In this document: positions 174 through 36,868 of the stretch, one piece after another
Layout of the letters: each line of letters starts with the position of its first letter
Numbering within the stretch: the stretch's first letter is position 1
From: Sulfurovum sp.
Lineage (GTDB): Bacteria > Campylobacterota > Campylobacteria > Campylobacterales > Sulfurovaceae
Direction of reading: 5' to 3'
DNA length: 36,900 bases
Assembly (NCBI GenBank): GCA_027019175.1
Contig: JALUXB010000069.1
Span: forward strand, 1-36,900
Translations under genes and position numbers: made by a program
The notes under the pieces: model-generated
What the model saw: the letters and a program-made list of their open reading frames with translations, nothing else
Databases searched by the model: none
What the model was told of the DNA's origin: nothing

Positions 174-1193
174 ATGGACAAAGCAAGACAACCAATGCGT
201 ACCGGTGTATCAGATATCGCCTTTCTCATCCTCTTTGCAGCAGAATTTACCTACTATCTGTTGATCCTGCAGACAGGGGTTGTGGCGTATCACCACTCAC
301 AACTTTCTGAAATATGGATGGTACCCGTCGGTGGTATGATGGGCATCGTACTTTCAGTAGCCCTTTTTCAGAAACGTGAAGTACTGATGCCGTGGCTGCT
401 TTTGCTGCAGTTGCTGCTTAGTGTTGCGTATGCAGATGCAAACGGTATGGCATTGTTCCTCCTCGGGCTCATTAGCGGGCTCACCGCACCGATGCTGCTC
501 TACCGCATTGACAAACTCTATATCGCAACGATTGCGTTGGGTGTATCCTACTTTATTGGTACGATGTTTTTCGACATTCCGGCACATGAACGTACAACGA
601 TCGCTGTAGCACTCAGTATAGTGGCACTTGCAGGATCGTTGTTCGCGCAGCCTGGGCGCAAAAAAGCTGTGTTGCGCCAAACGGTATCGGTCTACATGAT
701 CTTGACTGTCTTCTTGTGGCTGCTTTTGGATGCCGCGCTCTTTGAAACACTCTCACGCGATACACTCATGCATCTTTGGGGATGTGACACATACAGATGG
801 CATATCATCCTGTTTCACAGCTTGGGTCTTCTGGCTGCATATGCGCTTCGCAGATGGCGGCATACCGATGTTGCGATGATCGTACTCTTTCTGCTCGCCT
901 ATATGGCGTACAGTATGCACAACCGTGAGATACTGAGTATCGTCTATCCGTTTGTGATCTCCTACTACAATGTGGCGATACTCTATAGGTTGATGCATTT
1001 GGGGTATCTTCCTCTGGCTGTTGTTTCACTGGGGCTGTGGGGTGCATCGGGCATCGGCCTTATTATTGCCCTGTTACACGTTTTTTCGGCTGCCTGGAGC
1101 ATCCTTGCACTGCTTGCTGTTGTCGTACTCTTCAAAGCATTGCATACAAGGCTCTTTTTTACAGCCATACATTTTACTTCACTGAAAGGATAG
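174..1193 (+). CDS. Polytopic inner-membrane protein of unknown function
   Basis: A 339-residue protein made almost wholly of hydrophobic segments, about ten predicted membrane helices spread from residue 13 to the C-terminus, with short polar loops. I do not recognise the family. There is no obvious transporter signature, heme-binding His pair in a helix, or ATPase motif. It begins a run of co-directional genes: the YceI-like gene starts four bases after its stop. The context (heme-copper-like protein, YceI, ABC transporter) suggests a membrane job linked to respiration or to periplasmic protein or lipid handling, but this is inference. The upstream 106 bases hold the cytochrome terminator and probably the operon promoter; the GAAAGAG before the ATG is a weak ribosome site. 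Confidence 0.75.
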   Translation: MDKARQPMRTGVSDIAFLILFAAEFTYYLLILQTGVVAYHHSQLSEIWMVPVGGMMGIVLSVALFQKREVLMPWLLLLQLLLSVAYADANGMALFLLGLISGLTAPMLLYRIDKLYIATIALGVSYFIGTMFFDIPAHERTTIAVALSIVALAGSLFAQPGRKKAVLRQTVSVYMILTVFLWLLLDAALFETLSRDTLMHLWGCDTYRWHIILFHSLGLLAAYALRRWRHTDVAMIVLFLLAYMAYSMHNREILSIVYPFVISYYNVAILYRLMHLGYLPLAVVSLGLWGASGIGLIIALLHVFSAAWSILALLAVVVLFKALHTRLFFTAIHFTSLKG

Positions 1194-1197
1194 AACC

Positions 1198-1725
1198 ATG
1201 AAAAAAACACTACTCTTTACACTGCTATTTATCACTGCTGCCTTTGGAAAAACACTACAGGTGGAAAACGGTGTTGTCAAAGCGCATACCGAAGTGCTTG
1301 GCGATTCTACAATTGATCCTGAAACGCATGTTCTGATATCGCACCTTACGATGGCAGATGATGTCGCTTCTATGAAAGGGAGCATCGATGCCTCTATACT
1401 GAAACTCAAAAGTGACAATGAAGACAGGGATGAGCATATGGTCAAGGCGCTTGAAAGCCTCAAATATCCTATGGCGCACTATGAGGTTAAAGAAATTTTG
1501 AAAAAATCCAGAGGCTACACGATCAACGGGATAATGGAGTTTCACGGTGTCAAGCGTCCGCTTTCGTTCGATTCGGATATAGTGAAGCATGGTGACAAGG
1601 TTGACATTACGGCAAAGGGCTCGATCCGTTTGTCTGACTATCAGGTCAAACCTATCAAGCTGCTGTTTTTGAGCGTTCGTGACAGGGTTGACCTCAATAT
1701 CCATCTTGTCCTGAAAACGAGATAG
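1198..1725 (+). CDS. YceI-like periplasmic protein
   Basis: 175 residues. A signal peptide (KK, hydrophobic core, cleavage near AFG-K at about residue 18) is followed by a lipocalin-like YceI domain. Supporting features are the internal stretch YTINGIMEFHGVKRPLSFD and a terminal amphipathic beta pattern ending IHLVLKTR. YceI proteins form a beta-barrel that binds polyisoprenoid or quinone-like lipids in the periplasm; the substrate here is unknown. It lies 4 bases after the membrane protein gene and 6 bases before the ABC permease gene, so it is surely in the same operon. A second YceI-type gene occurs at 11957-12565. The sequence is divergent, so the family call is good but not certain. Confidence 0.75.
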   Translation: MKKTLLFTLLFITAAFGKTLQVENGVVKAHTEVLGDSTIDPETHVLISHLTMADDVASMKGSIDASILKLKSDNEDRDEHMVKALESLKYPMAHYEVKEILKKSRGYTINGIMEFHGVKRPLSFDSDIVKHGDKVDITAKGSIRLSDYQVKPIKLLFLSVRDRVDLNIHLVLKTR

Positions 1726-1731
1726 GCCGGT

Positions 1732-2805
1732 ATGTTCCGCTCCCTGCTGCACTACCGCTACAAGACACTGCTGATTGTACTCTCCGCCACCGCGGCGATC
1801 ACCTCGACCTTTCTGATCACCGCACTTAGCAACGGCATTGTGCAGATGTATGCGCAGATGCTACGAACCGATGGAGATATTATTGTGATGCAAAAAGGGG
1901 TGGCAGATACTTTTTTCAGCGATGTCAACCTCTCTCTTGGCAGATCTATAGCATTGTTTGATGGGGTGCGCTCTGTCGAGGGGGTCATAGTAGGTGCGGG
2001 AAAGATAGACACCGTTCCCATTGCCGGGATCTACGGTGTTACCCCAAACCGTTATGGCAACTATGCACTTAGCAGCGGACGCTACCCAAAAAAAAACGCA
2101 GAGGTGATGATCGGCGAGAGCATCAATATGCTGCTGGTTGATCCTGAGCAGATCACACTGTTTGGAAAAACGTTTCATGTCACCGGTGTCTATCACAGCG
2201 ACATCGGCTTTGAGAACGGGGGTGTGGTGATCAACATCCATGATGCACAGAAGCTTTTTAAAAAAAGTGCTTCCTTTCTGCTTGTCAGCCTCAAAGATCT
2301 CGCCAAAGCCGATGAGATCATTGGAAAAATAAACAGACTGGATGAGAATGTGGTTGCCAAATCGACCGATGCCTTCATCGACAGCTACAACCAGTTCAAG
2401 ATCATCCGTATTTCCGGCGGTGTGATCGCCTCAATCTCTTTTTTGATGGGCTTTCTTGCTATTGTAAGCCTGATGAGTATGATGATCGGAGACAGAACCT
2501 ACGAGTTTGGCATCAAACGGGCACTGGGTATCTCAAAAATGCGCATACTCATGGAGGTCATGGCAGAGGTGATCGTGCTGACACTCTTCTCCTTTGCACT
2601 GGCATATCTTGTGGCAGAGGGTGTACTCTATGTACTTGAGCACATCAAAAAGTTTCAGGGATATCTGAGCGGGGAGATCGATGCAACGCTCTTTGTGCAA
2701 CTGCTTGGCGGTTCTCTGCTTATGGCAGTACTGGGTGCCATGATCCCTGCATTGATGGCATCGCGTGTCGATCCTGTCACACTGATCAACAGGGGGCGGG
2801 CATGA
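1732..2805 (+). CDS. ABC transporter permease, FtsX/MacB/LolE type
   Basis: 357 residues with the topology of the FtsX/MacB superfamily: one N-terminal membrane helix (about 10-32), a large extracytoplasmic domain (about 35-220, MacB_PCD-like), then three C-terminal helices (about 228-252, 283-303, 320-342) with the typical cytoplasmic motif EFGIKRALGISKMRI between helices 2 and 3 and the closing MASRVDPVTLI. Such permeases work as mechanotransmitters, moving lipoproteins, peptides or other periplasmic substrates without classic transmembrane transport. The stop overlaps the start of the ATPase gene by four bases (ATGA), so the two form one transporter. The substrate is unknown; lipoprotein release or assembly of the neighbouring exported proteins is possible. 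Confidence 0.88.
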   Translation: MFRSLLHYRYKTLLIVLSATAAITSTFLITALSNGIVQMYAQMLRTDGDIIVMQKGVADTFFSDVNLSLGRSIALFDGVRSVEGVIVGAGKIDTVPIAGIYGVTPNRYGNYALSSGRYPKKNAEVMIGESINMLLVDPEQITLFGKTFHVTGVYHSDIGFENGGVVINIHDAQKLFKKSASFLLVSLKDLAKADEIIGKINRLDENVVAKSTDAFIDSYNQFKIIRISGGVIASISFLMGFLAIVSLMSMMIGDRTYEFGIKRALGISKMRILMEVMAEVIVLTLFSFALAYLVAEGVLYVLEHIKKFQGYLSGEIDATLFVQLLGGSLLMAVLGAMIPALMASRVDPVTLINRGRA

Positions 2806-3413
2806 TAGAAGCAAAATCCATTACCCATTTTTACGGCAATGAAGCGATACTGCATGACATCTCACTGACCATAGAAGAGGGGAGTTTTACGGTACTAAGC
2901 GGTGAGAGCGGCAGCGGCAAGTCCACTTTGCTGAGCATTCTCTCGACACTGCTTCGCCCAAGCCGTGGCAGCATACACTACGACCAAAAGGATACGGCAG
3001 AGATCAAAAAGATAGATGCTTTCCGAAACGCAAACATCGGGTTTGTGTTCCAGTTTCACTATCTGATCGCGCATCTGACCCTGCTGGAGAATATCATGAT
3101 TGCATCACGCAAAGAGAAGGCAGAAGGCATTGCACTGTTGGAGAGACTGGGTATTAGGCATCTTGCGCACCGCTTTCCAGACGAAATATCAGGCGGCGAG
3201 CGCCAAAGGGCTGCCATTGCCAGAGCACTCATTAATGAGCCGCGCTATCTCTTTGCCGATGAACCTACAGGCAACCTCGATACAAAAAATTCTGAAGCGG
3301 TATTTGATTTACTGCGTGAGCTTGATGCCACAGTGATTGTTGCCACACACGATACCAAACGCATTGCATCAAGTGATAAAATAATTCAACTTAAGGATGG
3401 ACGACTGTGTTAA
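2802..3413 (+). CDS. ABC transporter ATPase, LolD/MacB type
   Basis: 203 residues. Walker A GESGSGKST (residues 34-42), signature ISGGERQR, Walker B YLFADEPTG with the catalytic Glu, D-loop NLDT and the switch His in VIVATHDT are all present, so it should hydrolyse ATP. The size and the LDT.NS...F.LL tail fit the LolD/FtsE/MacB-N group that partners FtsX-type permeases. Its start overlaps the permease stop (ATGA) and its own stop overlaps the next gene, which starts at GTG 3407. It is the energising subunit of the 1732-2805 permease. Confidence 0.92.
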   Translation: MIEAKSITHFYGNEAILHDISLTIEEGSFTVLSGESGSGKSTLLSILSTLLRPSRGSIHYDQKDTAEIKKIDAFRNANIGFVFQFHYLIAHLTLLENIMIASRKEKAEGIALLERLGIRHLAHRFPDEISGGERQRAAIARALINEPRYLFADEPTGNLDTKNSEAVFDLLRELDATVIVATHDTKRIASSDKIIQLKDGRLC

Positions 3414-4990
3414 ATAAGATGCTTCTCCCACACATACGGTTTTCCTATATGTTTTTAGTATTGGCAGCTTGTTTTGGACTACTCTATGCACTGCAGCTGC
3501 TTGGTATCGGTACAGATCTTATTCGTCCCGATCTGATGCGTTCGTTGCATATTTCGCTGATGCTGTACGGGTTTGTACCGCTGATGATGACGCTGCTGCC
3601 TTTTGCACTCTTTGACAAAGAGGGAATACTGCATGCAGGATCACTGCGTAATCTTGAACGTTTTTTGTGGCTGTGGTACATCTTTTTGGTCTTTATGATC
3701 CTCTCCATACTCGCAGGCGTGACACGCGGGCTTCCCTTTTATGACTTTGCCTATGAACTCAACGCCATTTTGGCACTTGCCGGGCTGTTTTACATCGCTG
3801 CACTCATACAGAATGTGCGCAACTATCCCAAGGTACCGCGCTGGGTCAAAGTATCGCTCTTTTTGGTTATCATCAGCCCTCTGGCGCTGCTTATTTTGAT
3901 GAATCCTCAGTATGGACAGGTGGAGAAGATGCTGCAGGGACCTCACGGTGACAATACACTGGGCATGAGCTTTGCGCTGGTGGTGATCTACTACCTTGTC
4001 ATCAAACTCTCTTCCGAAAAGATCAGTTTTGAGACCAAGTGGCATTTTCTGTGGCAGATCCCGCTTGCCGGCTACGCAGTAAGCGTACTCTGCCGCATCT
4101 TTGTCGGTACACTCAGCTACAATGCCGAATGGTTCTTTCAGTACCTGACACTACTTTATGTTCCGCTGCTGTACCGCTGGTGGAAAGATGCCGGGCTTAG
4201 CATCGCAAAGAACCGTCTGCTTTTCATCTCTATTGCAGCATTTCTCTTTGCCGATGTGGAGGGCAATATTCTCTTTATCCCCTCACTTCGCCATCTCTTT
4301 CACCGCAATGATCTTGTGGTAGGGCATGCCCATGTCGCGGTGGGTATCGGGCTGCTCTTTTTGGCATTGGCGATCATCAAACCCTATATGAGTGTAGGAA
4401 GATATAAAGCCTATTTTTGGGCACTTATGCTCTCTCTTATGGCTGTTGTTCTGAGTATCAGCGGCATAGAACAGGCAGGATTCGCTGACATGCATACAGA
4501 AAAACTGTGGGAGTGCCGTGCGCTGTTTGGCGCACTCTTTTTGGCAGGGCTGCTTTACCGTCCGACAGGCATTGGGACAGACTATCTGCGAAGATGGGTA
4601 CACACATGGAACACAATAACCTTGTATAATGCAGCAGGTTTTCTCTCTGACGGTGTCGGTGGTGTACTGTTGCTGCTCTTTGGCAAAGCACTTTATGATA
4701 TGGCGGGTATACCGTTTGCACCCGGGTATCAGCAGATCGTCTTTGGTTTTGTTGCCGCTGTAGGTGCCATCCACTTGATGGGGGTGCTCTATCCGCGTTA
4801 CGGTGAAGCGAGTGCACGCGCAACTGTTTTGGCGCGCATTGTCACTGCCGCTGGCTTTTTTGCACTTTACAAAAACGGTACATTTGGGTGGATCGGGGCG
4901 TTTATCTGCATGACCGATCTGCTCTTTGTGTTGGTGTATCTTATATTTATCAAAAAGGAACCTTCTTATGAAAAAAACGATATGGATTAG
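3407..4990 (+). CDS. Heme-copper-oxidase-like membrane subunit lacking the CuB site
   Basis: 527 residues, about 14 membrane helices. It aligns by eye to CcoN (cbb3 oxidase subunit I). RSLHISLMLYGF matches the helix-II heme ligand region (H48). VVGHAHVAVGIG matches the helix-X HxH (H307, H309). EKMLQGPHGDNTLG aligns without gaps to the CcoN helix-VI motif ending GHNAVG, but the CuB ligand His is D182. In the helix-VII region (about 203-235) the HH pair is absent. Heme binding therefore looks possible while the usual binuclear centre does not. I place the start at GTG 3407 because AAGGA lies ten bases upstream; ATG 3419 is too far from it. The stop overlaps the next gene by 23 bases. It could be a quinol/heme electron-transfer or NO-related protein; the function is unknown. 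Confidence 0.7.
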   Translation: MLNKMLLPHIRFSYMFLVLAACFGLLYALQLLGIGTDLIRPDLMRSLHISLMLYGFVPLMMTLLPFALFDKEGILHAGSLRNLERFLWLWYIFLVFMILSILAGVTRGLPFYDFAYELNAILALAGLFYIAALIQNVRNYPKVPRWVKVSLFLVIISPLALLILMNPQYGQVEKMLQGPHGDNTLGMSFALVVIYYLVIKLSSEKISFETKWHFLWQIPLAGYAVSVLCRIFVGTLSYNAEWFFQYLTLLYVPLLYRWWKDAGLSIAKNRLLFISIAAFLFADVEGNILFIPSLRHLFHRNDLVVGHAHVAVGIGLLFLALAIIKPYMSVGRYKAYFWALMLSLMAVVLSISGIEQAGFADMHTEKLWECRALFGALFLAGLLYRPTGIGTDYLRRWVHTWNTITLYNAAGFLSDGVGGVLLLLFGKALYDMAGIPFAPGYQQIVFGFVAAVGAIHLMGVLYPRYGEASARATVLARIVTAAGFFALYKNGTFGWIGAFICMTDLLFVLVYLIFIKKEPSYEKNDMD

Positions 4991-5420
4991 TCTTTGCTTG
5001 ACACTCGGACTCTTTGCCGATCTGAAGATCGGTCAGCACTTTCCCAAACAGACATTCACCGACCAGTTTGGCAATACGATGCAGGTAGGCAAACATGACC
5101 GATGGGTCTGTGTCACTTTTGAAAAAAATGTCGCTGTTGCCTTGACCAAAGAGGTCAAAAAGGTACCTAAAGGATATCTTGAAAAACACCGTGTGCGTTT
5201 TATCTCTGACATCAGTGCCATGCCCTCATTCATCACTGCCATGTTTGCGCTGCCGATGATGAAGAAGTACCCTTTTTCTGTCTGGCTCATTCGTGATGAG
5301 AGCGGAAAAGTGTATGACCGTAAACCGGGGATGGTGACGCTCTACAGGCTTAAAAGAGGCAAAGTAGCTTCTAAACGCTTTATTGAGCCGCAGGCACTGC
5401 TGCACATTGTGGACAAATGA
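4968..5420 (+). CDS. Small exported protein, possibly thioredoxin-fold
   Basis: 150 residues from ATG 4968, chosen because AAGGA sits just upstream and because the resulting N-terminus (MKKTIWISLCLTLGLFA) is a clean signal peptide; a longer reading frame from 4926 would destroy it. The mature part (GQHFPKQTFTDQFGN, then RWVCVTFEK, ISAMPSFI, YPFSVWLIRDESG) has the rhythm of a redoxin-like alpha/beta fold, but there is no CxxC pair, so disulfide chemistry is unlikely. The family is not recognised. It overlaps the oxidase-like gene at its 5' end and the following hydrolase gene by four bases, so all three are probably co-translated. Confidence 0.7.
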   Translation: MKKTIWISLCLTLGLFADLKIGQHFPKQTFTDQFGNTMQVGKHDRWVCVTFEKNVAVALTKEVKKVPKGYLEKHRVRFISDISAMPSFITAMFALPMMKKYPFSVWLIRDESGKVYDRKPGMVTLYRLKRGKVASKRFIEPQALLHIVDK

Positions 5421-6331
5421 TCAAACAAAACAAAAAAGGGCGGTTTGACGGGGCACTCAACAGCCTGCGCACACTGCGCTTTCGTGATGTGCTCAAGTGG
5501 AAACTTCTACACCCTTACAGCCCTATAAAGTCCCATAAGCGTCTTGTGGTAAAAGATGAGCATGAGAAGCTCATAGCTGCCCAAGACTATCTTTGCTGGC
5601 TTGGACATGCCTCCTTTTTGCTCCAGCTTGGTGGTAAACGTATCTTGATCGATCCTGTCTTTGGGGATATCCCTTTTTATAAACGGGATATTCCTGCACC
5701 CTATACGCCTGCGATGCTTCCAAACATAGACTTTTTGCTGCTCTCCCATACCCACTATGACCATTTCGATGCCCCTTCTCTTCGTCAGATCAGCAAGTAC
5801 ACAAAGCAGGCTTTACTGCCGCTTCAGATGGGATGTCTGTTGAAACGTACTGTAAAATCCAATCTTCACTGTACAGAACTAAACTGGTTTGAACGGTATG
5901 AAGAGGAGGACTTTGCCGTGACACTGGTACCTGCTAAACATTGGAGCAGACGTGGAGTGTTCGATACCAACAGAGTGTTATGGGGCGGATTTGTCATAGA
6001 ATATGGGGGAAAGACCGTCTATTTTTCAGGTGATACGGCGTTTGATACCCATTTTGAGGCCATTGGCTCCTGTTTTGACATTGACATCGCCATACTCCCC
6101 ATCGGTGCCTACCGTCCAAGAGAGGTGATGAAACACAACCACCTCGACCCGCAGGAGGCGTATGATGCCTTTAAAATGCTCGGTGCAAAGCAGATGGTTC
6201 CCATGCACTACGGTACCTTCAAACTCTCCGATGAACCGCTGGACGAACCCTTGGCATGGTTACGTAATATTACAAATTCTGCTTCGGAAGAGATAAGGGT
6301 TTTGGAAGTGGGAGAAGTCTATACAATATGA
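5417..6331 (+). CDS. Metallo-beta-lactamase-fold hydrolase, NAPE-PLD-like
   Basis: 304 residues. The metal motif HTHYDH (residues 111-116), later His in AKHWSRRG, the bridging Asp in FSGDTAFD, and the closing His in PMHYGTF form a complete dinuclear zinc site. WLGHASFLLQLGGKRILIDP near the N-terminus and the LDPQEAYDAFKMLGAKQMVPMHYG C-terminus are typical of the NAPE-PLD / YfhI-like branch (L-ascorbate-6-phosphate lactonase fold relatives), which often act on phosphodiesters. The bacterial substrate is unknown. No signal peptide is seen, so it is probably cytoplasmic. The start overlaps the preceding stop (ATGA). Confidence 0.88.
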   Translation: MIKQNKKGRFDGALNSLRTLRFRDVLKWKLLHPYSPIKSHKRLVVKDEHEKLIAAQDYLCWLGHASFLLQLGGKRILIDPVFGDIPFYKRDIPAPYTPAMLPNIDFLLLSHTHYDHFDAPSLRQISKYTKQALLPLQMGCLLKRTVKSNLHCTELNWFERYEEEDFAVTLVPAKHWSRRGVFDTNRVLWGGFVIEYGGKTVYFSGDTAFDTHFEAIGSCFDIDIAILPIGAYRPREVMKHNHLDPQEAYDAFKMLGAKQMVPMHYGTFKLSDEPLDEPLAWLRNITNSASEEIRVLEVGEVYTI

Positions 6332-11956: not shown

Positions 11957-12565
11957 TTATTTACTGTCACACTTGGTTGCTTTGACTGTGGTGACAAACC
12001 CGATGCTCACATCACTCCACGTTTTACCCTTGTGCAGGTCATAGCAGGCACGGTTGATGCTTTTCAGTGCGCTACCGGCGGCAAAATCCATGAGGTCTAT
12101 GTTCCCCTGTGCCTTGAAAAGTCCTTTTTCATAGTGGTAATCCAGGGGTGTCGTGACGGTTTTACCGTTCATTGTCAGTGCCACTTCAAGCTTTCCGGTG
12201 TAGGGCTTGCCTTTGGTATGTGCATCGGGGGTGACAGAAAGAATTTTTCCCGTGATCTTCGGTGTTTTCATTTGTTTGAAAAAGTATGTGACCAGTTTCC
12301 CGTCACGGACAGTATTGCCGCTATCGACCTTTGTCGTATCGATGGTGACGGTAGATCCTTCAAAGAGTGCTTTGAAGTTCTTTCCTTCTTTGTGGGCAGG
12401 ATGATAGGAGAGTGAAGGGAGTTTTCCCTTGACACCGATCTTTTCAGGGGTCTTGTAGGCTTGCCAGACAATATCGACACTGTCATTCTGTACAAGTGTA
12501 CAGCCCCCTTTTGCATAAAGCAGTGTCCCGGCAAGAAGGAGGGCAGTTGTCAGTGTTTTTTTCAT
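11957..12565 (-). CDS. YceI family periplasmic protein
   Basis: 202 residues from ATG 12565, preceded by AAGGAG; the frame could extend to 12586 but the internal Met gives a proper signal peptide (MKKTLTTALLLAGTLLYA). The mature protein has YceI features: VDIVWQAYKT near the N-terminus, VDSGNTVRDGKLVTYFF in the middle, GKLEVALTMNGKT and a terminal strand ending in TVKATKC. YceI proteins bind isoprenoid lipids in the periplasm. Cys residues near both ends of the mature protein could form a disulfide. It lies between a DUF302 lipoprotein and a DUF1456 gene. Confidence 0.85.
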   Translation of the reverse strand: MKKTLTTALLLAGTLLYAKGGCTLVQNDSVDIVWQAYKTPEKIGVKGKLPSLSYHPAHKEGKNFKALFEGSTVTIDTTKVDSGNTVRDGKLVTYFFKQMKTPKITGKILSVTPDAHTKGKPYTGKLEVALTMNGKTVTTPLDYHYEKGLFKAQGNIDLMDFAAGSALKSINRACYDLHKGKTWSDVSIGFVTTVKATKCDSK

Positions 12566-12585
12566 TGTATGGCTCCTTGGAAGCA

Positions 12586-13047
12586 TTATTTCTTTGCAGC
12601 AGCCTTACTGAGCTCCTGCAGCATGATATGCATATTTCTAATGATACCTAAACAATTCTTATCTTTAATGTTGTGTTTAAGCGTCCAGTATTCGGGATTG
12701 GTATAGGAGATGGTCGTTTTGCCTTCATAGTCTGTCGTAAAGAGCATGCGAAGGGGAAGATCAAGCCCCATAGAAGGGTTACACTCCATTAACTTCGTTC
12801 CCATCTTCGGATTGCCGAAGAGCACAACTGTTTCAGGACGCAGATCCATACCGGCTTTTTTGGCAATAGCTGCATGGTCAATGGTAGCAAAGTGCATCAA
12901 ATGTTTTTCTTTGATGATCTTCAGAAATTTTGAAACAGCCGTAGGCAGGTTGTTTTGGGAAGGCACACTTTCGAAGAATGCCCCTTTTTTATTGTCACAG
13001 CCTGTCAGCGCCAGCAGAAGTATTGCTGCCAAAAATAGTTTTTTCAT
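12586..13047 (-). CDS. DUF302-domain lipoprotein
   Basis: 153 residues. The N-terminus MKKLFLAAILLLALTGC ends in a lipobox with Cys17, so it should be lipid-anchored in the periplasm. The rest is a DUF302 domain: HFATIDHAAIAKKAGMDLRPETVVLFGNPKMGT, then MGLDLPLRMLFTTD and YTNPEYW. The role of DUF302 is not settled; it often occurs near redox and sulfur genes. It begins 14 bases after ychF, with AGGTACC-type spacing and GGAATG before the ATG, and precedes yceI by 20 bases. Confidence 0.88.
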   Translation of the reverse strand: MKKLFLAAILLLALTGCDNKKGAFFESVPSQNNLPTAVSKFLKIIKEKHLMHFATIDHAAIAKKAGMDLRPETVVLFGNPKMGTKLMECNPSMGLDLPLRMLFTTDYEGKTTISYTNPEYWTLKHNIKDKNCLGIIRNMHIMLQELSKAAAKK

Positions 13048-20288: not shown

Positions 20289-22613
20289 ATGAAGAAAAAC
20301 AGAAATATCTCTACACTTGTTCTGTCTACTGTTGCATTGCAGCTTGCAATTGTACCAGTGCAGTTAAATGCATTCCGTGCTCCGGATACATCCAAAAAGG
20401 TACAAAGCCTTGCAGTCAAAAAGGTAGACTTGGAACGGAATGCAAACTTGAAAACAATATCCAAACGGCATCTCAACAAAAAGGTTGTAAGTGACGCTGC
20501 GTTCACAGCAACAAGCCTGGCACAGGAAATCTTTAACAATGGTTTGGATTATGCACTCTCAGCACCCATTGCCAAAACACAGGCTGTGAATGGCTCATCT
20601 TTTGCCACTATCCGGAAAGAACTTAAAGATCCGCTTGGATTTACGCACATCCGTACAGTACAAAAATATAAAAATATTCCTGTAGTCGGGGCAGAAGTTA
20701 TTATCCATATCAATAACAAAAATACCGTCTATATGATTAATGGAAAGTATCAGCCTGATCTGAATATGGATGTAACCCCTAAAGTATCAGCCAAAAAAGC
20801 CCTGGAGATCGGACTTTCGGAGCAGAGCGGAAAAAGCAATATGCATGTAGGGAAACAGCCCTCACTGGTTATCTATGATAAAAAACTTGCATGGTTTTAT
20901 ACGATTGAATATGACGGCAGTGAACCGGGCAATGTATACTACTATGTTGATGCCAAGACCGGTAAACTCCTCAACAGCTACAACAGTATCAAATATGCGG
21001 CACCTTCCCAGGCAAACGGGGCAGCAGCAAATGTTACGGGAAACCGTCTGAATGGTGAAGACGGCAGTAATGTAACCATTGGCGGCTTTAAAGAAGATGC
21101 ATCAGCCAGTAATAACTATTTTCTCTACAGTTTTACCAACAAATGGGGCGTCTACGATACCGATGCCGGAGACTGGGAACAGCAGGCATCTTCTGCCTGG
21201 GGCAGTGCCGATCCTGCCGCAGTTTCCTGTGCAAATAACATGGAAGCGACACAAAATTATGTCTCAACCATTTTGAACAGAGACAGCTTTGATAACAATG
21301 GGGCATTTGCGGAAGCAGATGTCCATGTCGGTGACAACTATGTCAATGCCTACTGGGATGGCAATAAATTCAATTTTGGTGACGGTGACGGGTCAACGTC
21401 AAACCCGCTGACGGTTCTTGATGTTGCAGCCCATGAATACGGGCATGCTATTACACAATATACATCCAACCTTGAATACCAGAATGAATCCGGCGCCCTC
21501 AATGAAGCCTATTCCGATATTCTCGGTACTACAGTGGAATTCCATGTGCAAAGTGACGGGACATCAGCTTACCCTGATGCTGTCGCAGGAGAGTCAGACT
21601 GGCTCATGGGAGAAGACTGCTGGGTGAGCGATACAGCATTGAGAGACATGAAAAATCCACAACGTTATAATCAGCCCTCATATTACATGGGTACCAACTG
21701 GTATACGGGTACGGGTGACAATGGCGGGGTGCATACCAACAGCGGTGTTGCCAACTTTGCCTTCTACCTTTTGGCGGAAGGTGGTGCCGGCAGCAATGAC
21801 GGACATGATTACAACATTACAGGAATAGGCATTTCCCAGGCGGCGGCAGTAGCCCTGAGAGCGAACTATGTCTACCACACTTCTACTACAGATTATGCAG
21901 CTGCAAGAGAAGACTGGATACAGGCTGCGGAAGATTTGGGCTACAATACCCAAACCGTTGCTGCCGTATGGACAGCATGCGGGGTGGAAAAAGTTATTCC
22001 GACACCGCCTGAATATACTATGAGTGATACAGCACCATATGCTTTTGAAGACATCAGCACGACGGGTACCAATCTTTCATTGGGAGATGATGCCTCTGCA
22101 AATATAACATTCCCATTTGATTTTTCGTTCTACAAAAATACCTATAACAGTGTCAATGTGAATTCAAACGGAACCCTTTCCTTTACCAGTACTGACACTT
22201 CCTACTCAAATGGAGCCATTCCAAACAGTGCCTTCCCCGATATGATTGCCGTATTCTGGGATGACCTTAACCCTTCCGGTGGTGGCGCAGTCTATTGGGA
22301 AGTCAAGGGTACTGCACCTAACCGAAGACTGATAGTCCAATGGAATGATGTCATACACTATGGCGGTTCAGACGGCGGAACTTTTGAAGTCATCCTTTAC
22401 GAAGGAAGCAATAAAATTCTGATGCAGTATGCGGATGTGAACTTTGGAGATTCGGGTATAAACAATGGTGCTTCAGCCACTGTAGGTATTCAAAAAGACA
22501 GTAAGCAGGGGCTTCAGTACTCTTCCAATACTGCTGACTTAAGAGACGGATTAAGTATTCTCTTTGCACCCAAAACATTTGGTATGTCACCTGTATATTA
22601 TCTCCTTTTCTAA
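20289..22613 (+). CDS. Secreted M4 (thermolysin-type) zinc metallopeptidase
   Basis: 774 residues. Signal peptide 1-28 (cleavage after LNA), propeptide with FTP/PepSY features (about 85-240: LGFTHIRTVQKYKNIPVVGAE, NMDVTPKVSAKKALEIG), and the M4 catalytic region with HEYGH (382-386), the third zinc ligand E406 in GALNEAYSD, and the second catalytic His in GGVHTNSGV. All catalytic residues are intact. The last 170 or so residues are a beta-rich domain (FPFDFSFYKNTYNSVNVNSNG, MIAVFWDDLNP, TFEVILYEGSNKILMQY) of the kind appended to secreted proteins. The product should be an extracellular protease degrading protein for nutrition or acting on surfaces. It is flanked by its own promoter and a terminator-like hairpin. 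Confidence 0.93.
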   Translation: MKKNRNISTLVLSTVALQLAIVPVQLNAFRAPDTSKKVQSLAVKKVDLERNANLKTISKRHLNKKVVSDAAFTATSLAQEIFNNGLDYALSAPIAKTQAVNGSSFATIRKELKDPLGFTHIRTVQKYKNIPVVGAEVIIHINNKNTVYMINGKYQPDLNMDVTPKVSAKKALEIGLSEQSGKSNMHVGKQPSLVIYDKKLAWFYTIEYDGSEPGNVYYYVDAKTGKLLNSYNSIKYAAPSQANGAAANVTGNRLNGEDGSNVTIGGFKEDASASNNYFLYSFTNKWGVYDTDAGDWEQQASSAWGSADPAAVSCANNMEATQNYVSTILNRDSFDNNGAFAEADVHVGDNYVNAYWDGNKFNFGDGDGSTSNPLTVLDVAAHEYGHAITQYTSNLEYQNESGALNEAYSDILGTTVEFHVQSDGTSAYPDAVAGESDWLMGEDCWVSDTALRDMKNPQRYNQPSYYMGTNWYTGTGDNGGVHTNSGVANFAFYLLAEGGAGSNDGHDYNITGIGISQAAAVALRANYVYHTSTTDYAAAREDWIQAAEDLGYNTQTVAAVWTACGVEKVIPTPPEYTMSDTAPYAFEDISTTGTNLSLGDDASANITFPFDFSFYKNTYNSVNVNSNGTLSFTSTDTSYSNGAIPNSAFPDMIAVFWDDLNPSGGGAVYWEVKGTAPNRRLIVQWNDVIHYGGSDGGTFEVILYEGSNKILMQYADVNFGDSGINNGASATVGIQKDSKQGLQYSSNTADLRDGLSILFAPKTFGMSPVYYLLF

Positions 22614-33943: not shown

Positions 33944-34921
33944 CTACGCCATCATATCCAACGGGCTCATAACTTTTGCCTTGTTCATCTCTGCAACTAC
34001 ATGTGTATAGACCATCGTTGTTTCTACCGACTTGTGACCCAGTAACTCCTGAATGCTTCTAAGATCAATGCCGCTTTGCAGCAGGTGTGTAGCGTAGGAG
34101 TGTCGGAAGATGTGGGAGGTGACGCGTTTGTTGAGGTTTGCTTTTTTAGCTGCCTCTTTGATGTTTCTACCAACTGTTTGAGGGTGTAAGTGGTGTCTTC
34201 TTCGCTCTTTGCTGCGTGGGTCAGTGGAGATATTTTTCATAGGAAAGAGATACTGCCATTTGGTTTCATATTTGGCATTGGGGTACTTTTTGCTCAATGC
34301 GTATGGAATAAAAACCCTCCCATACCCGGCTTTAAGATCTTCTTGATGTAACTGCGTTACTTTCTCTACCTGCTCTAAAAGTTTTGTTTTGAGACTTTGC
34401 GGTAGCGGTACGGTTCTGTCTTTTAACGATTTTGAGTCCCAAATGTAGATTTTGTCAAACCCAAAGTCTATGTCTTTGACGCGAAGGTTCAAGGCTTCAT
34501 TCATCCTGAGTCCACACCCATACATGAGATGGGTAATGAGGCTATATTCGCTTGGAATGTGCAACAATATCTTTCGCACCTCCTCCTTGATCAATACTAC
34601 GGGAATACGCTTTCTTTCCTGTGCCCTCAGTGCCTGAATGTCCCACTTGCTTATGTCGATGCCCAAAACTTCTCTGTATAAAAACAGTAATGCGCTGAAA
34701 GCCTGATTTTGTGTCGTAGGTGATACTTTTTCCTTTACTGCCAACTTTGTCAGAAATTGTTCAATGTGTACTTTCTCCAGTTTTATCGGGTGTGTTTTAT
34801 TATGAAATAAGATGTAGTGTTTGATCCAATGTACATAGGTACGTTCGGTTGAGTAACTGTAGTGCTTCAAGCGTATTTTTTCCCGTACGATGTCTAAGAG
34901 CTTTTTCTTTTTCTCGCCCAT
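33944..34921 (-). CDS. intI: IntI-type integron integrase (tyrosine recombinase)
   Basis: 325 residues. Catalytic residues are complete: R139 ([10 protein letters not shown]), K167 (SLKDR), H270 and R273 ([15 protein letters not shown]), H296 ([10 protein letters not shown]), Y305 (VYTHV). The SAM-like N-terminal DNA-binding domain carries [20 protein letters not shown]. Residues about 200-247 ([13 protein letters not shown] ... [19 protein letters not shown]) are the extra segment that sets IntI apart from XerC/D and binds folded attC sites. Closing KVMSPLD also matches IntI. AGGAG lies eight bases before the ATG. The enzyme should insert and excise gene cassettes by attI x attC recombination. 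It reads leftwards, away from the ABC-3C-like genes. Confidence 0.9.
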
Positions 34922-35217: not shown

Positions 35218-36429
35218 ATGTCAAATACTACACATACTGATAAAACAAGTGCAGATTCAATTGCAGTAGCATTTGACTATCAATACTATTATTTTCTATT
35301 CAAAGTTTTTAGTTTAGAGGTTGGACAATCAGTCGGTCTCGAAGTTAAAGATGATGTACATACTGAACTTAGTAATAATATTCAACTACTAATTCAATTA
35401 AAGCATAGTGTACAAACAAGTGCATCTGGCAATTCAGTAAATCTCACAACACTTGATAATGATCTATGGCACACGCTCTATAATTGGTGTGAAGTCATCA
35501 CAGATGCACAAGATGATAGAAAAAATACGGCTAAACAAATTGATTTCGTAGAAAAAACATATTTTATTTTGGTTAGCAATAAGTCTTATACTGAACAAAA
35601 CAAATTTATAGAGATATTAAATAACTACAAAATAGGTTCTATAACACATAAAAAAGCAAAAAATGAGATCAGTAAAATAACCACTGAAAATAAAGATATA
35701 CAGAAATACAAAGCTAAATTATTATCTTTGGATGATGATGTTTCAGAGCGATTTTTTAATCATATGGAATTTGATTTAGATAATGATGATTTAATTGACA
35801 AATGTAAAATAGCTCTAAGGTCCAAAATGATTCCGGAAGAGAATATTAATGATTTGTTTAAAAAACTAGATTCTAGTATTAGAGAAGAAAACTATACTGC
35901 CATAAAGAAAAATCAAAAAATCATTATTAACTTTGATGAATACTATAAAAAGTATAGAATCTACTATGATCAAGCTCGAAATACTGACTTACAAATAAAG
36001 ACATTTAGCATAGGCTTACCTGACAATTTAACTGAGCAACGTTTTATTCAACATTTAATCGATATTAATGATATTTCAGAAGATGACATTGACGATATCA
36101 TAGAATTCACAAAGTATAAGCTACAAATTCAAAACAATGTAAGTAGTTGGTTACAAGAAGCAGAACTCACCAAAGATCAACTTGATGATTTTGAAAAAGA
36201 AGTTATTGCAATATGGAGAAATGAATTTCGTTCAAAAAATAGAGGTCAAATGACTGAAAAGGAGATACAAGTAAAAGCTTTATCGATAGTTGATACTTTA
36301 AGAAAAGAAAAGTTATCGATTTCGTCTTTGCAACTCGATACTCAACACAGCAATGGAGAGTTCTACTATCTGTCTGATAATTTAAAGATTGGTTGGAGAA
36401 AAGATTGGGAGGATAAATACAGTGGATAA
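35218..36429 (+). CDS. Predicted ABC-3C system effector with PD-(D/E)xK-like nuclease domain
   Basis: 403 residues, very AT-rich and Asn/Lys/Ile-rich compared with the rest of the window. The N-terminus (residues 15-64: FDYQYYYFLFKVF, then GLEVKDDVHTE and LLIQLKHS) has the E42, D45/D46, Q60-x-K62 arrangement of Cap4/DUF4297-like PD-(D/E)xK nucleases. The middle is helical and of unknown function. The C-terminus (GEFYYLSDNLKIGWRKDW) resembles the C-terminal domain of ABC-3C effectors, where a G.FH.LS...IGWH pattern is common; here Arg takes the place of His. The AAGGA ribosome site is ten bases upstream. A small coupled gene follows. No signal peptide. Confidence 0.65.
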   Translation: MSNTTHTDKTSADSIAVAFDYQYYYFLFKVFSLEVGQSVGLEVKDDVHTELSNNIQLLIQLKHSVQTSASGNSVNLTTLDNDLWHTLYNWCEVITDAQDDRKNTAKQIDFVEKTYFILVSNKSYTEQNKFIEILNNYKIGSITHKKAKNEISKITTENKDIQKYKAKLLSLDDDVSERFFNHMEFDLDNDDLIDKCKIALRSKMIPEENINDLFKKLDSSIREENYTAIKKNQKIIINFDEYYKKYRIYYDQARNTDLQIKTFSIGLPDNLTEQRFIQHLIDINDISEDDIDDIIEFTKYKLQIQNNVSSWLQEAELTKDQLDDFEKEVIAIWRNEFRSKNRGQMTEKEIQVKALSIVDTLRKEKLSISSLQLDTQHSNGEFYYLSDNLKIGWRKDWEDKYSG

Positions 36430-36868
36430 CTATTTTTATAACAATATTGGTATTTGTTCATCTTCAATACTTGCAACATTGCAAGAAAATGGTGAGGAGA
36501 TCGAACTGACAAAAATACTTTTAATTATGCCTTTCTTGTCACATAAACAATTAACAAATTATTTAAGTAAAGCCAATGTAAAAATTTTGAGTTTAGATGG
36601 ATTACTCATTGATAAAAAAAGTTATTTTACAAATTTCAATAAAAGGTTTTACCAAAGTTTACCATCGACTATTAATTCCTTGCAATTTTTACATGATATT
36701 GAAATTATTCAGATTAAAGAAAATAAAGTGAGTCTTCTAAAAGAAATTACATACAACAAAAAGATGGGAAAGAGAGTTGAAAAAATTTATAAAGCTTCTA
36801 AAAATATAGCAAAAATTTTAAACGAGAGTAATGAAAAACTCTATTTAAATCTAAGGATTGAACTATGA
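36422..36868 (+). CDS. Predicted ABC-3C middle component (winged-helix-like)
   Basis: 148 residues from GTG 36422. GGGAGG lies nine bases upstream, and the GTG overlaps the effector stop by eight bases (GTGGATAA); the in-frame ATG at 36389 lies inside the effector gene with no such site. The sequence has an early conserved-looking NNIGICSSSILATL, a helix-turn-helix-like LLIMPFLSHKQLTNYL, and LHDIEIIQIKENKVSL as a possible wing. This size and place between effector and ATPase fit the three-component middle proteins. It ends in ATGA with the next gene. Confidence 0.6.
   Translation: MDNYFYNNIGICSSSILATLQENGEEIELTKILLIMPFLSHKQLTNYLSKANVKILSLDGLLIDKKSYFTNFNKRFYQSLPSTINSLQFLHDIEIIQIKENKVSLLKEITYNKKMGKRVEKIYKASKNIAKILNESNEKLYLNLRIEL

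Follow-up and report, generated by a model that had tools for sequence, protein, structure and literature searches.

The heme-copper oxidase (HCO) superfamily is generally defined by a binuclear centre made up of a heme and a second metal, and in the catalytic members three histidines hold the second metal (CuB or FeB). CcoN, the catalytic subunit of the cbb3 oxidases, is accompanied by the c-type cytochromes CcoO and CcoP. The cNOR type of NO reductase is recognized by the FeB histidines, a helix-VI Glu and the partner NorC, and the gNOR type by an active-site Asp, a retained helix-VII His pair (HH) and a cupredoxin subunit II. For the gNOR of Sulfurimonas and Sulfurovum, the active-site residue has been given as D (PMC8756737). 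Proteins of the YceI family bind isoprenoids such as ubiquinone-8, and their genes often lie together with that of a b-type membrane cytochrome; one such pair, LcoA (b561) and BcnA (YceI), guards membranes against lipid peroxyl radicals (PMC9113575). In E. coli, the b561 gene yceJ adjoins yceI.

The window analyzed here is a stretch of 36,900 nucleotides from a Sulfurovum sp. (contig JALUXB010000069.1, positions 1 to 36,900, forward strand). It encodes an HCO-like protein in the following gene cluster:

174–1193 (+): MFS-fold membrane protein, 339 aa, no Pfam family; model pLDDT 92.5, VIA-align Z up to 26 with MFS transporters
1198–1725 (+): YceI-family periplasmic lipocalin, 175 aa; Pfam YceI E 1.7e-15, E. 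coli YceI (1Y0G) E 1.5e-4
1732–2805 (+): ABC permease of the FtsX/MacB/LolCE type, 357 aa; family search, conserved neighbour
2802–3413 (+): ABC ATPase of the LolD/MacB type, 203 aa; family search, conserved neighbour
3407–4990 (+): HCO-like protein without CuB ligands, 527 aa, predicted 12-helix HCO core and four C-terminal helices; ORF, Pfam, model and alignment
4968–5420 (+): 150-aa protein of no known family, N terminus signal-like, no CXXC; close by in 24 of 36 loci

The HCO-like gene begins with GTG and shares its first 7 bp with the ATPase gene upstream. The only Pfam match of the protein was COX1, with an E-value of 1.3e-4 that falls under the curated cut-off, and the single protein had no match in NCBIfam or among solved structures (phmmer). 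COX1 was matched by 27 of 31 family members (best E 2e-9) and the ccoN model by some of them (9e-6). When a family profile was compared with PDB sequences, the R. capsulatus CcoN was the only relevant chain (E 6e-4). Apparent fusions of the ATPase and the HCO-like protein (L077, L090 and others) were discarded as out-of-frame overlaps between ORFs.

An AlphaFold2 model built from 31 family members reached a pLDDT of 82 and a pTM of 0.79, with a low-confidence loop directly before D182 (residues 175–177 below 50). Foldseek placed CcoN (8smr, 6xkw) and NOR structures on top, the best being 8smr_E (E 2e-5). Superposition of a predicted structure on CcoN and NorB, as proposed in the initial annotation, recovered the HCO fold with Z-scores of about 26–27 over about 380 residues. 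The values were Z 27.1 over 382 residues (rmsd 4.1) for NorB of R. denitrificans (RdNOR) and Z 25.9 over 386 residues for the cbb3 CcoN, within an overall range of Z 25–27 over 370–386 residues for the two proteins. Judged by the 12-helix subunit I fold of the model, the product is a divergent member of the HCO fold family. The VIA-align match stops near residue 400, and the four helices that follow are absent from HCOs.

The ligands were placed by hhalign profile alignment and L-INS-i multiple alignment with CcoN, and invariance was counted in 64 distinct Campylobacterota homologue sequences. The following positions are invariant (64/64 for each residue named):

3548–3550 (+): H48, ligand position for the low-spin heme in helix II; falls on the CcoN His and shares the R-x-x-H of CcoN
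3743–3745 (+): D113, aligned over the Glu of the CcoN KEYAE motif in the loop between helices III and IV
3944–3946 (+): H180, two residues ahead of the CuB position
3950–3952 (+): D182, replacing the helix-VI CuB His; GDN (181–183) over CcoN GHN by hhalign and L-INS-i
4094–4096 (+): R230, at or beside the lost helix-VII His pair, register uncertain by one
4127–4129 (+): E241, start of helix VIII
4301–4333 (+): H299, D302, H307 and H309 in helix X, HxxDxxxxHxH as in CcoN, by alignment
4613–4951 (+): four-helix C-terminal extension (residues 403–515, helices from the model) with D415, H456, R477 and D504

The initial annotation had found H48 in helix II and H307 and H309 in helix X in place as in CcoN, and all three hold throughout the family. 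The segment HRNDLVVGHAH (299–309) is aligned on the helix-X motif HFTDWIPGHVH of CcoN. The histidines for the low-spin heme (H48 and H309, helices II and X) and for the high-spin heme (H307, helix X) are thus all present, and both heme sites are apparently retained. The same annotation had also laid the helix-VI motif over that of CcoN, with D182 in place of the CuB His. Since GDN falls over GHN in both alignments, D182 stands at the place of this ligand. The helix-VII pair is missing as described, with no His between residues 214 and 295 of the protein, and the question whether an entire family shares D182 and lacks the pair is answered in the affirmative, as HH occurs in the helix-VII region of 0 of the 64 sequences. 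The register of the pair is uncertain by one residue, falling on 228/229 in the L-INS-i alignment and on 229/230 in a gap-free motif match; position 229 is not conserved and is His in 10 of the 64 sequences. With D182 in helix VI and no HH in helix VII, the three His ligands of CuB or FeB seen in catalytic HCOs are gone. We regard it as very probable that the protein has the HCO fold and lacks the classical CuB/FeB site. H180, R230, E241, H299, D302 and D113 had not featured in the initial annotation, nor had the C-terminal helices or the conserved operon.

The gene is under purifying selection, with a dN/dS of 0.12 against an orthologue of 87% identity. This value, the invariance in 64 of 64 sequences and the complete lack of HH together indicate that the classical CuB site was not lost by decay and that its absence is a selected trait of the family. 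A real pseudogene was seen in one genome (G528, L088), where the HCO-like gene carries eight in-frame stops beside an intact MFS-fold gene.

The invariant positions also bear on the question whether heme is used at all. The protein might be a heme-free or heme-static scaffold, or a lipid channel, that serves the ABC/MFS machine and has kept only the HCO fold. The four added helices with their invariant charged residues D415, H456, R477 and D504 do suggest a second function, and the gene strictly co-occurs with those of transport proteins. However, the three heme histidines and H299, D302 and D113 on the propionate side are invariant in all 64 sequences. A protein devoid of heme would hardly account for this, and we consider a pure scaffold quite improbable.

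A different use of the same residues would be a new non-heme Fe or Zn site next to the high-spin heme, built from H180, D182, E241 and others, in a divergent reductase of NO or another small molecule. All three residues are invariant, and changes of active-site carboxylates are known from NO-reductase branches, including the residue D of gNOR (PMC8756737). The genome itself encodes a gNOR-like HCO of 561 aa outside the module (L027, 1432–3117, genome G000, contig C47), which has GLD in helix VI where others have GH and is preceded by a gene for a 197-aa subunit-II-like protein. This gNOR-like protein keeps the helix-VII HH, however, as gNOR does, whereas the HCO-like family never has it and instead places an invariant Arg at or beside the position of the pair. 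The module proteins contain neither CXXCH nor a CuA-like motif, and the module has no cytochrome c, CuA or cupredoxin donor subunit. In addition to the gNOR-like gene, the genome already holds a genuine norCB (L026), as well as a genuine ccoN (L025). A link to denitrification was rejected, as NosZ was found in 23 of 60 genomes with the HCO-like gene and in 102 of 337 without it (Fisher p 0.23). Taken together, a reductase with a new metal site seems rather unlikely.

The HCO-like protein resembles CcoN in the fold, the helix-II RxxH, the helix-X HxxDxxxxHxH, the acidic residue in the loop between helices III and IV and the helix-VI GxN. It differs from CcoN by D182 at the place of the CuB His, the lost HH, the lack of CcoO and CcoP, the four additional C-terminal helices and an operon with ABC, MFS and YceI genes. 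With NorB and gNOR it shares the fold (Z 27 for NorB) and the heme histidines, and with gNOR also an altered carboxylate at the active site. Unlike NorB and gNOR, it has no FeB His ligands, no NorC and no cupredoxin subunit. The earlier suggestion of a heme protein with altered or no O2 or NO chemistry is in part borne out, in that the predicted HCO fold, the kept heme ligands and the family-wide loss of the CuB/FeB ligands all agree with it.

In the window, the MFS-fold gene comes first, followed by those for YceI, the ABC permease, the ABC ATPase, the HCO-like protein, the 150-aa protein and a metallo-beta-lactamase-fold hydrolase. The arrangement usual in other families begins with the permease and the ATPase and continues with the HCO-like, MFS-fold and YceI genes; the 150-aa protein, a metallophosphoesterase and a two-component system of the OmpR type often come next. 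Near the HCO-like gene at 36 loci, we found the MFS-fold gene 35 times, the ATPase and the permease 34 times each, YceI 33 times and the 150-aa protein 24 times, some of the gaps being due to contig ends or ORF calling. When 397 Campylobacterota genomes were searched separately for the HCO-like and the MFS-fold genes, both searches retrieved exactly the same 60, from 18 of 68 genera. The HCO-like gene is thus obligately tied to the ABC/MFS-fold/YceI operon. Apart from one record titled 'bacterium', a scan of contigs for close relatives returned just MAGs and isolates of epsilonproteobacteria, and tblastn yielded no plasmid copies. Literature searches, with subscription papers outside their coverage, found no description of the family.

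The neighbouring regulators raise the possibility of a heme-based gas or redox sensor (for O2, NO, CO or the quinol state) with control over the ABC machine or the adjacent two-component system. Gas sensors are usually built around a five-coordinate heme with no second metal beside it, which would fit the HCO-like protein. A response regulator and a histidine kinase are part of the operon at Arcobacteraceae-like loci, and an OmpR-like regulator is divergent to the operon in Sulfurovum. The HCO-like protein has no signalling domain, however, and the two-component system is missing at some module loci, unlike the ABC, MFS-fold and YceI genes, and we find a sensor unlikely. The initial annotation had offered an electron-transfer or a sensing module as options. 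Electron transfer fits the YceI/ABC/MFS context better than reduction of O2 or NO would, and the choice between the two options is our interpretation.

The permease and the ATPase belong to the families of the MacB/LolCDE type VII ABC transporters, and to our knowledge no known member of these systems comes with an HCO-like protein. The sizes of the two proteins resemble those of HrtBA, and a two-component system is often adjacent, which invites a comparison with HrtBA/HssRS. The ABC pair might then export or deliver heme to the HCO-like protein as a heme-binding acceptor. Against this, the permease profile matched MacB and LolF/LolE among solved structures and not HrtB, for which reason an exporter of the HrtBA type was discarded, and YceI is a binder of lipids and isoprenoids. 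A role in heme handling is highly improbable. The operon points to the handling of envelope lipids or quinones, although the varied substrates of ABC, MFS and YceI proteins count against this lipid theme.

The system that comes closest in gene content is the pair of LcoA and BcnA, or YceJ and YceI in E. coli, in which a b-type membrane cytochrome, as predicted here, is encoded together with a YceI lipocalin. The linked lipocalin is found at 33 of the 36 loci. The membrane partner, however, has an HCO fold and not that of cytochrome b561 (PF01292), COX1 being its sole Pfam match, and ABC and MFS-fold proteins are added. The HCO-like protein is compared with LcoA only in how it may work. The Sulfurovum genome has no gene of the cytochrome b561 family, and its only two YceI genes are both in the window. 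The second lies at 11957–13047 (-) beside a gene for a DUF302 lipoprotein. In two Arcobacteraceae-like genomes of one genus (G525 and G541), a b561-family gene follows directly after the histidine kinase of the module, with an overlap of 8 bp (L124, 11682–12344; L125, 10464–11126). A simple replacement of b561 by the HCO-like protein was rejected, as PF01292 proteins occur in 56 of the 60 module genomes, though not in that of Sulfurovum.

The link between YceI and b-type cytochromes, the lack of b561 in the genome, the presence of both YceI genes in the window and the b561 genes of the two Arcobacteraceae-like genomes lead us to propose, as the likeliest though still tentative reading, that the HCO-like protein may be a di-heme b subunit without CuB that transfers electrons in an envelope lipid or quinone system and works like LcoA and BcnA. 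For this proposal, we infer heme occupancy, the absence of a metal, the flow of electrons and the lipid cargo. One heme would be held between H48 and H309 in the low-spin site and the second on H307, as in CcoN and NorB. The metal pocket would be occupied by D182 and, at or next to the former His pair, by R230. As the CuB/FeB site is lost, the protein would reduce neither O2 nor NO, and would instead pass electrons between the pool of menaquinol and the periplasmic side of the membrane. The YceI lipocalin would be the partner that carries a lipid or an isoprenoid quinone, which the MacB/LolCE-like ABC pair and the MFS-fold protein may move or present. As a result, the cargo of the lipocalin may be kept reduced, or oxidized envelope lipid may be repaired or removed.

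The constant association of a CuB-less HCO-like protein with ABC, MFS-fold and YceI proteins suggests that an ancient respiratory enzyme has been reused for a task in the cell envelope. A selected family with both heme sites and no classical ligands for the second metal would mean that the HCO scaffold can also serve other purposes. Automated genome annotation may be counting genes of this kind among the oxidases or NO reductases. Their strict association with the operon offers a testable way into an unknown envelope function of free-living Campylobacterota.

Several further features were observed in and around the cluster. The 150-aa protein has no match in Pfam or PDB sequences and gives the mere impression of a thioredoxin-like protein. 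The hydrolase that directly follows it (5417–6331, Lactamase_B_2) has relatives near 11 of the 36 module loci and is reminiscent of phospholipases of the NAPE-PLD type. At one locus (L079, G229), the MFS-fold gene is in two pieces with other ORFs between them. The contig begins with the last 21 residues of a cytochrome c (2–66, ending in VSCYDCHNGPNGD), truncated by the contig end; an intact relative with nine CXXCH motifs is located just upstream of the module at another locus (L091, 1481–3253). Elsewhere in the window, 20289–22613 (+) encodes a large, putatively secreted protein that resembles a protease; by eye, its HEYGH motif is thermolysin/M4-like. A putative tyrosine recombinase at 33944–34921 (-) looks like an integron integrase, also by eye, and is followed on the opposite strand by two ORFs (35218–36868, +) that look like a mobile or defence-type pair.
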